Positions 2,546-28,863 of a stretch of 64,000 bases of DNA are shown here, piece by piece (the first letter of the stretch is position 1; every line of letters begins with the position of its first letter). A program made the position numbers and the translations under genes. The stretch is taken from the NCBI RefSeq assembly GCF_001458435.1, contig NZ_CYSF01000009.1, forward strand, positions 1 through 64,000, written 5' to 3'. The notes under the pieces were generated by a model. That model was not told where the DNA came from, searched no databases, and was given only the letters and a program-made list of their open reading frames with translations. Source of the stretch: Thalassovita mediterranea. Its GTDB lineage: Bacteria; Pseudomonadota; Alphaproteobacteria; Rhodobacterales; Rhodobacteraceae.

Positions 2546-3174
2546 CTGATACCTTCCCGTTGTTTGACATGCCTGTAATAGGCAAAGAGCTGGCGCGCTG
2601 CAACGGCGCGCCATGGTGCCCAATTTTCACTAAGCGCGCGCAGTTCCCGCTCCTTAGGACGCGCCTCCATCCCGTATAGATGCTGCGCCGCCACCTGCAG
2701 CGCCAGATCACCGGGGGCAAAAACATCTGCCCGCCCGAGAGAGAACATCGCATAAATCTCTGCCGTCCAGACGCCGATCCCCTTCACGGCCGTCAGCGTC
2801 TGGATCACCTCTGCATCCGGCGCGCTGCGCAGGGCGTCATAATCAATCCCCGCCTCTGCCAGCGCCAGCGCATAACGCGCCTTTTGCTGTGACAGGCCAA
2901 GGGCGCGCAGATCGTCAAAGCTGTAGGCCAACACACCTTCGGGGCTGGTGCATCCTGCCTCCTGCAAGCGTTTCCAGATCGCATTGGCCGATGCCACGCT
3001 GACCTGCTGGCTGACAATCGCGGACAAGAGTTCGCCAAACCCATCCGGTTTGCACCGCAGCGGCAAGGGCCCCGTCGCCTGATAGGCCACCGCCATGCGC
3101 GGGTCATGCTGGCACAGCCATGCGACCCCTTCGGCCACGCAATCGTCTGTCTCAATAATCCGACCGACACTCAT
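2542..3174 (-). CDS. DNA-3-methyladenine glycosylase II (AlkA family)
   Basis: 210 residues of the HhH-GPD base-excision repair superfamily, which removes alkylated purines from DNA. The helix-hairpin-helix is at about 128-142 (LTAVKGIGVWTAE), and Asp156 in FAPGDLAL is the expected catalytic aspartate. LLSAIVSQQVS near residue 50 is the usual substrate-pocket helix. No N-terminal AlkA domain and no FeS cysteines are present, so this is the short alphaproteobacterial form. A TTG lies one codon before the chosen ATG, but GGGGGGATC suits the ATG at 3174. It forms a two-gene unit with the esterase. Confidence 0.85.
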   Translation of the reverse strand: MSVGRIIETDDCVAEGVAWLCQHDPRMAVAYQATGPLPLRCKPDGFGELLSAIVSQQVSVASANAIWKRLQEAGCTSPEGVLAYSFDDLRALGLSQQKARYALALAEAGIDYDALRSAPDAEVIQTLTAVKGIGVWTAEIYAMFSLGRADVFAPGDLALQVAAQHLYGMEARPKERELRALSENWAPWRAVAARQLFAYYRHVKQREGIR

Positions 3175-25159: not shown

Positions 25160-25894
25160 CTAGCCCAAGGTTAACCGTGCCGCCGCCCCCGCGCCATAGC
25201 TGGCCGAAATTTGCCTCACCTCTACCACACGGTCTGTGACGCCGCCGTTCAAAGCCTGTTCTGCCGCTGTGTAGGCCCATTCGGTCTGATCGATGACCAC
25301 CTCGCGAACAACCGTGCTGCCATCCAGAACCCGCAGAAGATACTGCTCACGCTCTTCGCCCAGTGGTACGTCGAGGCCATCCCAACTGTCGCCATCAATC
25401 CGCGTGCGACGGATCCAGCGGATCATCAGATCACCGTTCGCTGCTGCGGCCCGCAGATGCACAGGCGCATAGGGTCGTAACCCGCGCCCAGCAAAGGCGT
25501 GGACCTCATGCACAAAACTCGGGTCATCATAGCCCCGCCGCGCCGGTCCAATGCGAAAATGCTGTGCCAACCCACGGGTGTTCGCCGCCAGCCCCAATTG
25601 CTGCGCCGTGCCGTCCAACAGCACGACATAGCTGCCAACAGGCCACAGATCGGCCATCTCAACCTCGCTGCCCTGTTGACCGCGTAGCAGGCCGCGCAGG
25701 TGATAACGCGGGCCATAATCCCCCAGCGCCACCAAATCAGCGCTGGTAAACTGCGCCACCTCCCAGCCGTCCGGCGTGCCATTGCCAATGGCAATCACAT
25801 TCGCACCCGCCAATACCTCGTCAGGCGTCCGGCTCTCCAGATGCCCGCTTAAAAGGCCGAGGCTAACCAGCTCAATGCGACCACAGGCCTCACG
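25160..25894 (-). pseudogene. 3' remnant of GTA gene g15 (tail/host-specificity protein)
   Basis: The frame encodes the C-terminal part of the Rhodobacter GTA g15 protein, a phage tail tip/host-specificity protein. Recognisable pieces are ANVIAIGNGTPDGWEVAQF, RYHLRGLLRGQQG and the Ig-like IRWIRRTRIDGDSW. Similarity seems to begin near GRIELVSLGLLSGHLES, just after two stop codons at 25895-25900, so about 235 codons remain of a protein normally over 1,000 residues. No proper start exists; a TTG at 25811-25813 is the first start-like codon. It lies in the same frame as the terminase remnant upstream, as expected for an in-frame internal deletion of the GTA cluster. Confidence 0.75.
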
Positions 25895-25900
25895 CTACTA

Positions 25901-26788
25901 CTCGGTATGAGTGCGGTCCAGACCGTTTTGGGTCTAAAGGGCACCCTCTGCCTCGTTCAGCAGTTCACCGGCCAATTCCTGACGCCCCAAGCGAGTACCT
26001 GCGTAGCGCGCCTCGACCTCCTCAAGGAAACTGTCGGCCAGATCGGCGCGGTTGGCTGAGGTTGCGGCATGGGTGACAGCGGTGCTGTCGCGCCCCAGAA
26101 GATCTTTGAGTGCTTTTACATTTCGCGGCGTGGTGGTGACGCAAACCTGCGGCTGTTCGCCCAGACGCAGGCCAAATTGCAGCATGTCCCATGTGTCCTG
26201 TGCCTTGGGCCATTTGGCCAGCTCATCCACCCAGGCGCCGTCAAACTGCGGACCGCGCAAGCTCTCTGGATCATGGGCGGAGAATATCTGCGCCTCGGCC
26301 CCATTGGGCCATCGCAACAGGCGGCGGCTGGCGATCCAGTCAGGACGGCGATCGGGGGGCGAACAGGCCAGAATGCCGCTTTCGCCAAACACCATCACCT
26401 CACGCGCCTGATCCAGCGTTTCCCCCACGATGGCGAGGCGCTGACAACGCCCCTTGTCCAGTGGTCGCGCCCCTTCGACCTGCGCGCGCACCCATTCGGC
26501 ACCGGCGCGCGTCTTGCCCGCGCCGCGCCCGCCAAGGATCACCCAAGACCGCCAATCGCCCGCAGGGGGCAGTTGATGATCCAGCGCCCAGAACTCAAAC
26601 AGATAGGGTAGCGCAAGGATCTCTTCCTCGCTCAGCTCATCAAGGAAGGCATTTTGCAGGGCCACATCGGCGCAACCGATCCAACCGGCAGCGGATCTGA
26701 TCCCGAGCGTGGTCGAAATCGACGGTGTAGGCAGCGGCCTGTCCGGCGCGCGCTTGCTCTCGGTCATTGAATTTTGCCTCCAGCTCAA
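25901..26788 (-). pseudogene. 5' remnant of GTA gene g2 (large terminase)
   Basis: The N-terminal ATPase half of the GTA/phage large terminase. Walker A is WVILGGRGAGKTRAGAEWVRA (GGRGAGKT the core); LRGPQFDGAWVDELAKW carries the Walker B region, and VTTTPRN is the coupling motif. Translation stops at a TAG (25934-25936) after NEAEGAL, where related terminases usually continue with a Trp. Eleven more codons (from TQNGLDRT) extend the homologous frame before TAG TAG at 25895-25900. The whole nuclease half is gone. The 5' end overlaps g1 by up to 149 bp; the true old start may be an internal GTG. Confidence 0.75.
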
Positions 26789-26990
26789 AGGCGATTTTCA
26801 ACCAGTTGCGCAGATCACTGATCAGGCGCAGGTTGTCGCGCACCGCCCCGTCGTCATCCAGACGGATGCGGTATTGCATCGCTTGCATGTCATGTTTGAG
26901 GTCCGCCAATGTGGCGGCCACCTCGGTGAGTTGCGCGTCCAGCGGATCATCAATCCGCGGCGCGTCTGTGGTGTGATTGGCTTGGTTCAT
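26640..26990 (-). CDS. GTA g1-like protein (putative small terminase)
   Basis: 116 residues, mostly helical and charged. LTEVAATLADLKHDMQAMQYRIRLDDD and DNLRLISDLRNWLKIAFELEAKF (cited in parts) resemble the first gene of Rhodobacterales GTA clusters, thought to be the small terminase. It lies directly before the terminase remnant, as g1 lies before g2 in intact clusters. The C-terminal tail (RRCGPAKCLP) is read from DNA that also encodes the start of the terminase, which suggests that the normal stop has been lost. With the rest of the cluster gone it is probably non-functional. Confidence 0.6.
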   Translation of the reverse strand: MNQANHTTDAPRIDDPLDAQLTEVAATLADLKHDMQAMQYRIRLDDDGAVRDNLRLISDLRNWLKIAFELEAKFNDREQARAGQAAAYTVDFDHARDQIRCRLDRLRRCGPAKCLP

Positions 26991-27075
26991 CTGATGCCTG
27001 TCCCCTTACCGTTCGTGGAAGGTGGCATGAGCGGCATGAACAGGGTGCTAAGGCTGCGTGCGGTGGGGGAGGACG

Positions 27076-27103
27076 TTGACATCAACGCGCAGATGTCGCT
27101 AAT
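27076..27103 (+). promoter_or_regulatory. Candidate promoter of the leader/attenuator transcript
   Basis: TTGACA at 27076-27081 is a perfect -35 box. GCTAAT at 27098-27103 matches four of six -10 positions, with a 16-bp spacer. Transcription would begin near 27110, almost exactly at the leader ATG (27112), which would make the leader peptide leaderless. Confidence 0.5.
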
Positions 27104-27111
27104 GCAGGCGC

Positions 27112-27156
27112 ATGATCAAAACACGTGCCACTTCGACGACTTATTACCGCTCCTGA
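27112..27156 (+). CDS. Candidate leader peptide (MIKTRATSTTYYRS)
   Basis: A 14-codon frame with Thr at four positions and a Thr-Thr-Tyr-Tyr run (ACG ACT TAT TAC) placed immediately 5' of the first stem of the attenuator. The stop TGA falls in the loop of that stem. There is no Shine-Dalgarno sequence, consistent with leaderless translation as known for alphaproteobacterial leader peptides such as peTrpL. A ribosome stalled on the Thr/Tyr codons would cover strand 1 and free strand 2. Confidence 0.5.
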   Translation: MIKTRATSTTYYRS

Positions 27157-27207
27157 GGGGCGGTTTTGGTGTGTGATCAAAAACCGCTGCTGGCTGGCGG
27201 TTTTTTT
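27146..27207 (+). promoter_or_regulatory. Candidate transcription attenuator with three competing stems
   Basis: Strand 1 ACCGCTCC (27146-27153) pairs with strand 2 GGGGCGGT (27157-27164). Strand 2 GCGGTTTT (27160-27167) pairs perfectly with strand 3 AAAACCGC (27180-27187), the antiterminator. Strand 3 pairs with strand 4 GCGGTTTT (27197-27204), followed by more Ts, forming the terminator. The structures are mutually exclusive. The NTF2-like gene starts about 43 bp after the T-run. Confidence 0.6.
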
Positions 27208-27249
27208 GGTTGAAATCTCTGGTCGCAGCTTGTCAAGAAAGAGAAGCCT

Positions 27250-27636
27250 ATGACGACTAAAGACCTGTGCAATTCCTACCTTGCAGCGTTGAACTCTGCC
27301 GATCTGGCGGCGGTGCAAGCGATGTTTCCGCCAGACGGCATCGTGGTGTCCCCCCTTTACGGTGAGCAGAATGCGCATGCGTTCTACGCTGCCCTATTTG
27401 CGGACACCAACCAGTCTGAAACTACGTTGCTAAATGTTTTCGATACCTCGGACGATGGGGCAAAGGTTGCGCTGCATTTCCAGTATGTCTGGACCTTAAA
27501 TGGGGGAAAGGTTGTGCGTTTTGAATGCGTCGATGTTTTTGAACTGACCGAAGATCGCCAGCAATTCAAGAAGCTGACGATTATCTACGACACCGCCCAC
27601 CTACGGGCTGATTTCGATCAGGTGCGGACACAGTAA
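27250..27636 (+). CDS. NTF2-like (SnoaL/DUF4440-type) protein
   Basis: 128 residues. YLAALNSADLAAVQAMFPPDGIVVSPLYG at the N-terminus (cited in part) and HFQYVWTLNGGKVVRFECVDVFEL, then KLTIIYDTAHLR, give the alternating pattern of the NTF2-like cone fold. Such proteins bind or isomerise small hydrophobic molecules; no function can be assigned. AAGAGAAG precedes the ATG. The gene is preceded by an apparent attenuator, so its level may respond to charged tRNA for Thr or Tyr, which is odd for this family. It is followed by a bidirectional terminator. Confidence 0.75.
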   Translation: MTTKDLCNSYLAALNSADLAAVQAMFPPDGIVVSPLYGEQNAHAFYAALFADTNQSETTLLNVFDTSDDGAKVALHFQYVWTLNGGKVVRFECVDVFELTEDRQQFKKLTIIYDTAHLRADFDQVRTQ

Positions 27637-27656
27637 GCGTTTGAATCCAAAACGCA

Positions 27657-27690
27657 AAACCCCCGCCACAGTGGGCGGGGGTTTCTATTT
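27657..27690. terminator. Bidirectional terminator between the NTF2-like gene and mltG
   Basis: AAACCCCCGCC and GGCGGGGGTTT with a short ACAGTG loop. A run of A on one side and T on the other suits termination in both directions between the convergent genes. Confidence 0.8.
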
Positions 27691-27708
27691 TCTCAGACCA
27701 GAAACGGA

Positions 27709-28863
27709 TCAGTTGTTGTTCCGCTCTGCCTCGATCTGGCGCCATTTGGCGACGTTGCGGTTATGCTCTGCCAGTGTTTCGGCGAAGGCGTGGCCGCCGG
27801 TGCCGTCCGCGACGAAGAACACGTAGTTGGTGCTGGCGGGATCAAGGGCTGCCTCGATGCTGGCCTTGCCGGGGTTGGCGATGGGCGTCGGTGGCAGCGC
27901 GTCGATCACGTAGGTATTCCAAGGCGTTTCGCGGCGCAGCTCGCTTTGACGCAGGCCACGGCCCAACACGCCCTGCCCTTTGGTGATGCCATAGATCACC
28001 GTGGGGTCTGTTTGCAGGCGCATGCCGCGGTTCAGACGGTTGATGAAAACCGAGCCAACCGTGCGGCGTTCTTCGGCCACGCCGGTCTCTTTCTCGATGA
28101 TCGAGGCAAGGATCAGTGCTTCTTCAGGGGATTTCAGCGGCAGGCCGTCGACGCGGTTTGCCCATGCCTCGGCCAGAATGGCGTCCTGCGCGGCAACCAT
28201 GCGGTCGATGACCGACTGGCGGCTGTCGCCCTGTTTGACCTCATAGCTGTCAGGGGCCAACGTGCCCTCGGCAGGCAGGTTTGCCACCTCACCTGTCAGG
28301 ATGCCCACCGATTTCAGGCTGTCCACCACCTGCCAAGAGGTCACACCCTCCGCCAGCGCAACGCGGTGGCGGGTGTCGCCCTGTTCTGCGGCGGCAATGA
28401 AGGGCGCGGGCGCTTCATCCTCAGCCGGATTGAAGCTGGCGGTTTCCACGAAACGGCTGGTGGCCGGATCCAGCTCACGCACCAGAATGCGGCTGCGGGT
28501 GACGCCGATGCGATAGACCACTTCGGTGCCGCAGGTGCTGGCGCCGCCACGGGTCAGGATATCAACGATCTCTGCCATCGAGGCGCCTTCGGGCACCAGA
28601 AAGGCACCGGCCTTCAGCTGGTCCGCCTTGCCGGAGTAATCCGCGCCGATGCGAAACAGCGGGCCGCTGGAGATGGCACCGTCGCGTTCCAGGCGGGCGC
28701 TCATCCGGGACATGTTCGCGCCGCTTTCAACGCGCACACAAATCGGGGCCTCAAGAGGCCCCGCATTTTGGTAGCTTTGCTGCCCCCACAGGACGACACC
28801 GCCCGCAAGGAACAGCAAAACAACTAGAAACGTCAATGCGTTAGAGGCTAGTGCCTTCCACAT
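27709..28863 (-). CDS. mltG: Endolytic murein transglycosylase
   Basis: 384 residues. One N-terminal membrane anchor (about 8-28) is followed by a LysM-like YceG region and the catalytic domain with Glu in ASIIEKETG, then RLQTDPTVIYG, the SPYNTY-like ETPWNTYV and PPTPIANPGKASIEAALDP. It cleaves nascent peptidoglycan strands at the inner membrane and sets glycan length. The start is 1 bp after the fabF stop, so both are translated from one transcript (acpP-fabF-mltG order is common in this group). Confidence 0.94.
   Translation of the reverse strand: MWKALASNALTFLVVLLFLAGGVVLWGQQSYQNAGPLEAPICVRVESGANMSRMSARLERDGAISSGPLFRIGADYSGKADQLKAGAFLVPEGASMAEIVDILTRGGASTCGTEVVYRIGVTRSRILVRELDPATSRFVETASFNPAEDEAPAPFIAAAEQGDTRHRVALAEGVTSWQVVDSLKSVGILTGEVANLPAEGTLAPDSYEVKQGDSRQSVIDRMVAAQDAILAEAWANRVDGLPLKSPEEALILASIIEKETGVAEERRTVGSVFINRLNRGMRLQTDPTVIYGITKGQGVLGRGLRQSELRRETPWNTYVIDALPPTPIANPGKASIEAALDPASTNYVFFVADGTGGHAFAETLAEHNRNVAKWRQIEAERNNN

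Follow-up and report, generated by a model that had tools for sequence, protein, structure and literature searches.

The question raised by this locus is what a 14-codon frame, placed directly behind a promoter and followed by overlapping hairpins, does ahead of a small SnoaL_2 gene. The window, as we call the whole stretch of 64,000 nucleotides analysed here, stems from Thalassovita mediterranea, and its relevant features are collected in Table 1. The initial annotation had described a transcription attenuator with a probably leaderless Thr/Tyr leader peptide. We consider it likely that the block is a ribosome-mediated attenuator that sits on a mobile single-gene cassette and responds to the translation of Tyr codons. 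Promoter spacing, the frame, the Tyr-Tyr pair, the paired strands and the linkage to the gene support this reading through sequence comparison and folding; the stalling itself, its physiological trigger and the termination are our inferences. A conserved Tyr-codon attenuator is probably real, and it is probably leaderless.

Table 1. Features of the leader block, the gene and its borders (positions in the window).
Feature	Position	Strand	Remarks
Stretch with promoter, leader and gene	27069-27658	+	absent at two same-genus sites, with 199 and 224 nt of other sequence there
Sigma-70-type promoter, TTGACA-16-GCTAAT	27076-27103	+	read directly; predicted start at most 1-2 nt from ATG
-35 hexamer TTGACA	27076-27081	+	direct reading
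-10 hexamer GCTAAT	27098-27103	+	direct reading; spacer 16 nt
Leader frame MIKTRATSTTYYRS-stop, probably leaderless	27112-27156	+	14 codons; ATG at 27112, TGA 27154-27156
Closing helix P0	27113-27179	+	encloses hairpin 1:2; TGATCA 27113-27118 with TGATCA 27174-27179
Control codons TAT TAC (Tyr-Tyr)	27142-27147	+	found in 13 of 13 copies
Hairpin 1:2	27146-27164	+	stop codon in loop; strand 1 27146-27153 with strand 2 27157-27164
Alternative pairing 2:3 (antiterminator)	27157-27188	+	predicted folds; strand 3 about 27179-27188
Hairpin 3:4 and T run (predicted intrinsic terminator)	27179-27207	+	strand 4 about 27196-27205; T run 27201-27207
Possible strand 5 (tentative)	27212-27229	+	could pair with strand 4 region or gene start region; depends on fold length
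SnoaL_2/NTF2-fold gene, 128 aa	27250-27636	+	Pfam PF12680, 38.4 bits (gathering cut-off 27)
Terminator-like hairpin between gene and mltG	27657-27684		similar GC-rich stretch at same-genus sites

Direct reading of the promoter, the ATG, the 14-codon frame, the stop codon in the loop and the run of seven T agrees with the coordinates given in the initial annotation. The promoter is missing from the output of a generic promoter scan because that scan accepts only A as the second base of the second hexamer, and the base here is C. The region 27100-27220 folds with a z-score of -3.05 (1 of 200 shuffles equally good), and the shorter stretch 27112-27212 reaches only -2.00 (8 of 200). Predicted folds of the window leader agree with the annotated mutual exclusion of the pairings 1:2, 2:3 and 3:4, and the block recurs upstream of 12 other copies of the gene.

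The 13 copies come from 12 genomes, 11 of Rhodobacterales plus one Novosphingobium plasmid. The carriers are Limimaricola (four loci in three species), Primorskyibacter, Phaeobacter sp. J2-8, Phaeovulum, Paracoccus sp. DMF-8, an uncultured Rhodobacteraceae genome, Allgaiera, a Marinibacterium plasmid, the Novosphingobium plasmid and the window; one Limimaricola genome (G114) holds two diverged leader-gene cassettes, L010 and L013. The leader peptides read MIKTRATSTTYYRS (window), MIRCHQTLSYYRRP, MITSRQITSYYRRP, MMRRRQPPSYYRRH, MFRCHQTSSYYRRP, MICCHQTLSYYRRS, MILRCHQTPCYYRHP, MISQHIQLAQGTYYRRS (three copies), MISQHIQLTQGTYYRRS, MINQRIQLAQGTYYPRP and MVSPFSHRDYYRRT. All 13 begin with an ATG and have their Tyr-Tyr pair at stem strand 1; the stop codon falls fully inside the 1:2 loop in eight copies and across the edge of that loop in five. 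Past the start, Tyr-Tyr are the only invariant residues. The first Tyr codon is always TAT, and the second is TAC in 11 copies and TAT in two, a synonymous change. Tyr is preceded by 9, 10 or 12 codons (27, 30 or 36 nt from the ATG), and the length of the leader thus changes by threes; the distance from leader start to gene is 134-148 nt throughout. The proposed Thr/Tyr leader therefore has to be reduced to its Tyr part: Thr-Thr occurs in the window copy alone, so that the conserved signal is Tyr and Thr can be ruled out as the sensed residue. Short ATG frames with Tyr-Tyr and at most four codons afterwards, a rule defined after the pattern had already been noticed, were found in 12 of 71 upstream regions of relatives versus 6 of 14,200 dinucleotide shuffles, with relatives of approximately 35% identity as the background.

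The promoters speak for a leader that begins with its start codon. In all 11 copies of the promoter table the -35 TTG begins 35-36 nt 5' of the ATG (TTGACA copies: seven of seven), which places the ATG at about +1 and supports the annotated leaderless frame; the -10 hexamers are poor in most copies. This table and the fold tests below cover 11 of the 13 copies, omitting L006 and L022, whose leader peptides are identical to that of L019.

The comparison with relatives, which the initial annotation had suggested as a check, thus found leader codons and pairing conserved, although the block does not precede every orthologue. It is absent in seven intact orthologues with 60-66% identity in the best segment, namely L014 (Aliishimia), L015, L017 and L020 (Methylocystis), L018, L024 and L026, and likewise in the more distant L027 and L028. 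A further locus without the leader, L030, matches the gene from residue 21 onward and stands outside the count of seven. In L015, a TATTATC 29 nt ahead of the gene belongs to a frame of different layout and was excluded from the count. Aliishimia, which has no Tyr leader, shows an ATG with TAA as the very next codon at a comparable distance, 138 nt upstream of the gene start at 3001, which might be a start-stop stall element. Judged from these sequences, the leader appears to be a trait of one alphaproteobacterial branch and not of the entire protein family.

Pairing was evaluated in an alignment (A7) of 11 copies, without L006 and L130, in which 34 pairs in four helices are formed in 93.4% of the cells. 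Two-sided changes occur in 17 of these pairs, a number reached by none of 500 shuffles and compared with 2-8 pairs in slid controls; the closing helix P0 accounts for such changes in 11 of its 15 pairs. This covariation is support and not proof, as the aligned sequences are related to one another and were fitted to the very structure that they are used to assess. The Novosphingobium copy, located via the gene alone and lying outside the alignment, has the P0 pair ATGGTC:GACCAT versus TGATC:GATCA in most others. By mononucleotide shuffling P0 is significant in most other copies but not in the window (121 of 1000 as stable) or in L025 (119 of 1000), and its cognate arms are frequently not each other's best partners.

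In the mechanism that we propose, transcription would begin at the leader ATG or beside it, with ribosomes starting directly on the 5' end. With plentiful Tyr-tRNA, the ribosome would reach the stop codon at the 1:2 loop and mask strand 2, hairpin 3:4 would form, and transcription would stop at about 27207. A ribosome slowed at TAT-TAC would instead mask strand 1, strand 2 would pair with strand 3, and in the absence of a terminator the NTF2-fold gene would be transcribed. When the window leader is folded as far as the 3' end of strand 4, hairpin 3:4 has a predicted probability of 0.90 on ribosome-free RNA; this drops to 0.00 if a ribosome has its A site at the first or the second Tyr codon, and comes to 0.87-0.96 if the ribosome has reached the stop. 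None of 1000 dinucleotide shuffles of the window copy matched this three-state switch: 21 equalled its values in the two terminator states, and not one of the 21 also switched off at Tyr. Under a looser rule (a difference of 5 pairs) 2 of 1000 shuffles passed. This predicted switch of the window (0.90/0.00/0.87) and the position of Tyr-Tyr at strand 1 in 13 copies lend support to the attenuator logic first recognised in the annotation. A stall anywhere from Ala6 to Arg13, including Ala6-Thr10, would also switch the window RNA; Tyr is thus marked out by conservation and not by position.

The equilibrium switch differs among the copies. It is weak in four of the 11, the Phaeovulum, Paracoccus, Allgaiera and Novosphingobium copies (L019, L021, L023 and L130), which barely switch, with probabilities of 3:4 on Tyr of 0.67-1.00. 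L013, L016 and L010 switch in part (0.06-0.70 on Tyr), and the stalled Limimaricola-type copies are variable (0.03-0.70), with the lowest values in L011 and L012. In the barely switching copies, pairing 2:3 could form first during transcription.

The run of seven T after hairpin 3:4 is confined to the window copy, and the ten other folded copies have 2-6 T in the next 10 nt. In these relatives translational control may therefore matter. The same leader and stall switch might chiefly govern initiation on the NTF2-fold gene: in the OFF state 3:4 would be formed and a fifth strand would pair with the gene start region, and in the ON state 2:3 would be formed, strand 4 would pair with strand 5, and the start would be freed. 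Besides the scarcity of T past 3:4, folds that include 12 coding nucleotides point in this direction, with a freer start region in the ON state in ten of 11 copies. The same number was obtained with 18 coding nucleotides, where nine of the ten were equalled by at most 4 of 100 shuffles (11 of 100 for the window). With 24 coding nucleotides, however, the difference shrinks to at most 0.09 in eight of the 11 copies, the window among them, and the window has a good terminator. The Shine-Dalgarno stretch shifts by less than 0.1 in nine of 11 copies; its release was ruled out as the main switch, as the change is at least 0.1 in two copies only. Initiation as the chief target thus seems unlikely to us, and translational control may serve as a rival explanation or as an additional layer.

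Alternatively, the leader might sense something other than the supply of Tyr-tRNA, either by a nascent-peptide arrest at its YYR(R)x-stop end or by stalling on a ribosome-targeting drug. The end of the leader is indeed its conserved part in the 13 copies, and the E. coli toiL uORF responds, according to the abstract, to at least five classes of antibiotics (PMC12121999). However, the residues past Tyr-Tyr vary among the copies (RS, RRP, RRS, RHP, PRP, RRH, RRT), and their codons sit in strand 1, so that base pairing can account for the Arg residues. We therefore regard an arrest of this kind as distinctly improbable.

Whether the attenuator-like block occurs apart from the gene was addressed with a covariance model (R2), searched against 394 genomes of the family with ten candidates scored per genome and stricter filters. 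It recovered six strong places in five genomes, each ahead of the gene studied here, and no copy ahead of another gene in the 394 genomes. The strong places are training copies or near-identical to them, and the useful outcome is therefore the absence elsewhere, within the limits of the search. Weak matches in G277 and G324 (E 0.05-0.07) were rejected on inspection because the Tyr-Tyr leader is absent. The pattern ATGATC-N-TATTAYCGC is present in at least 221 of the 394 genomes; by eye, most of the matches listed repeat one coding-like stretch, and 30 fetched loci contained three unrelated short in-frame cases and no comparable block. BLAST of three leader sequences against plasmids returned no additional copies, but its sensitivity is limited, since the Marinibacterium plasmid copy, already known, was missed too. 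In Rfam 15, the window region 26950-27720 gave nothing at the gathering cut-off, with P9 as the best model (26.4 versus 43 bits), and six loci, one of them the window's own, gave nothing at E 0.05.

The surroundings of the copies indicate that leader and gene travel together. At two same-genus sites, the terminase-side genes and mltG have 199 or 224 nt of other intergenic sequence between them, and homology with the window stops at about 27069 and restarts at about 27659. The promoter-leader-gene stretch thus replaces other sequence there and is not a clean insertion, a pattern that by itself is compatible with gain as well as with loss. Stronger evidence comes from the Phaeovulum, uncultured, Marinibacterium, Allgaiera and Paracoccus copies, which are homologous from about -211/-246 to about +446/+471 of the gene start; beyond this span homology ends and the surroundings differ, and leader and gene therefore form one unit. 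The Marinibacterium copy (L131) lies on a conjugative plasmid (PLSDB typing) and adjoins an annotated IS110-type transposase gene, and the Novosphingobium copy, also on a plasmid, has a recombinase and a Tn3 transposase as neighbours. Few genomes carry the gene: at 1e-10 it has matches in 8 of 295 from the family, three of these being distant (34-36%). Eight of eight other same-genus genomes lack the gene and any match to the leader DNA, and a gene search at 1e-25 in 385 genomes of the class retrieved the window's own genome as the sole match. A set of 194 relatives of G259 contained nothing beyond the already known copies, phage records held no relative of the SnoaL_2 gene, and eight pattern matches in viral contigs were all non-relatives.

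Several further observations were made around the cassettes. In the Primorskyibacter locus (L012) an upstream frame resembles, by eye, an IS110-type transposase. Sequences of the type AGCGG(C/T)C(A/G)TT, some of them imperfect palindromes, occur near cassette ends, 3' of the gene in L011, L012 and L025 and 5' of it in L022, L023 and L131; they may be recombination sites or dispersed repeats. Beside the cassette, the minus strand of the window carries a cluster (25160-26990) that comprises a small gene (26640-26990), a homologue of the terminase large subunit (25934-26788) and, about 120 bp past it, the C-terminal part of a phage-type tail protein (25160-25813). The arrangement looks like the remnant of a gene transfer agent or prophage cluster, most of which has been lost.

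These results also bear on the idea that the block encodes an independent small RNA that ends at 27207 and is unconnected with the downstream gene. A short terminated transcript would be expected in any case, and the weak match to the Pseudomonas small RNA P9 (26.4 bits versus an Rfam cut-off of 43) fits such a molecule. All 13 copies, however, begin 134-148 nt ahead of the gene, although most were found via the gene; the gene-independent R2 search found none elsewhere, leader and gene share one homology unit across differing surroundings, and the frame is kept. Such a small RNA is thus very improbable. That a terminator and a short frame came together by chance, for which the weakness of P0 alone in the window and the weak z-score of the shorter stretch might be cited, is hardly credible in view of the shuffle tests and of the conservation across Rhodobacterales and on a sphingomonad plasmid.

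The model of the product of the downstream gene (pLDDT 87.6) matches the folds of limonene epoxide hydrolases, ketosteroid isomerases and the mobile-cassette protein Bal32a; as far as a modelled structure can tell, the NTF2 fold alone does not give the function. Together with PF12680, these matches bear out the annotated control, itself predicted, over an NTF2-like gene and not an amino-acid synthesis gene. No neighbour genes common to the loci were seen by eye, and models of anti-phage defence, run against two proteins, gave no match. The cassette could be imagined as a mobile stress or defence unit, whose enzyme neutralises some agent by which Tyr-tRNA is emptied or blocked, such as an inhibitor of tyrosyl-tRNA synthetase or an analogue of tyrosine, and whose leaderless Tyr switch is a five-strand cascade that acts on both termination and start access. 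If this were true, the gene would be on only while the agent slows Tyr codons, but we regard the whole of this picture as a speculative and rather doubtful one.

If the Tyr-codon attenuator operates as proposed, a single small enzyme gene takes with it, as it moves among Rhodobacterales and onto plasmids, one of them from a sphingomonad, an attenuator that relies on Tyr codons and apparently lacks a 5' untranslated leader. An uncharacterised enzyme would thereby be tied to the decoding of Tyr, and whatever slows Tyr codons should induce its gene. The copies also form a natural gradient of hairpin 3:4, from a canonical terminator to forms with few U, along which the balance of termination and translational control could be compared within one family. 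A literature search, to which subscription journals were mostly closed, yielded no paper on a Tyr-codon attenuator and none on an attenuator before a SnoaL gene.

Among known systems, Bal32a (1tuh), an NTF2-like protein from a soil mobile gene cassette according to its PDB title, has a matching fold (Z 15.1 over 118 aligned residues, rmsd 2.0, 19% identity) and shares the trait of a mobile gene. The likeness is one of fold and mobility, and the cassette described here is defined by its homology span and not as an integron cassette. The erm and cat leader peptides belong to mobile resistance genes with their own stall-dependent switch; the present gene is likewise mobile and would bear such a switch of its own, but it has conserved tandem Tyr codons and no known resistance function. 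Classical attenuators are those of the trp, his, ilv, leu, thr and phe operons, and E. coli TrpL ends in WWRTS-stop, of which the YYR-x-stop layout of the leaders here is reminiscent. In amino-acid biosynthesis operons the controlled gene makes the control amino acid, whereas here it codes for a SnoaL_2/NTF2-fold protein. According to a study that modelled the trp system, tandem-codon attenuators belong mainly to amino-acid synthesis operons, and the control codons of that system are two Trp codons (10 and 11), followed by Arg (12), where a stall blocks the first hairpin (PMC1183508). In Sinorhizobium meliloti, the trpL RNA begins at the ATG of a 14-aa leader (PMC7298713). With trpL of E. coli and S. 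meliloti the present block shares a short leader, tandem control codons at strand 1, mutually exclusive pairings 1:2, 2:3 and 3:4, and the sequence of two control codons, Arg (Pro in one copy) and a stop 2-3 codons past Tyr. It differs from trpL in having Tyr for Trp codons and a lone NTF2-fold gene for an amino-acid synthesis gene. For control outside amino-acid synthesis, the E. coli toiL uORF ahead of topAI is a precedent: at the level of its abstract, ribosomes stalled by antibiotics open a gene that is not one of amino-acid synthesis, by freeing the ribosome-binding site and acting on Rho-dependent termination within the gene (PMC12121999). That switch thus differs in its release of the ribosome-binding site and in its Rho-dependent termination on antibiotics, and its abstract-level description is one without tandem control codons; like the Tyr-codon attenuator proposed here, it uses a short upstream frame in which stalling is sensed ahead of a gene outside amino-acid synthesis.
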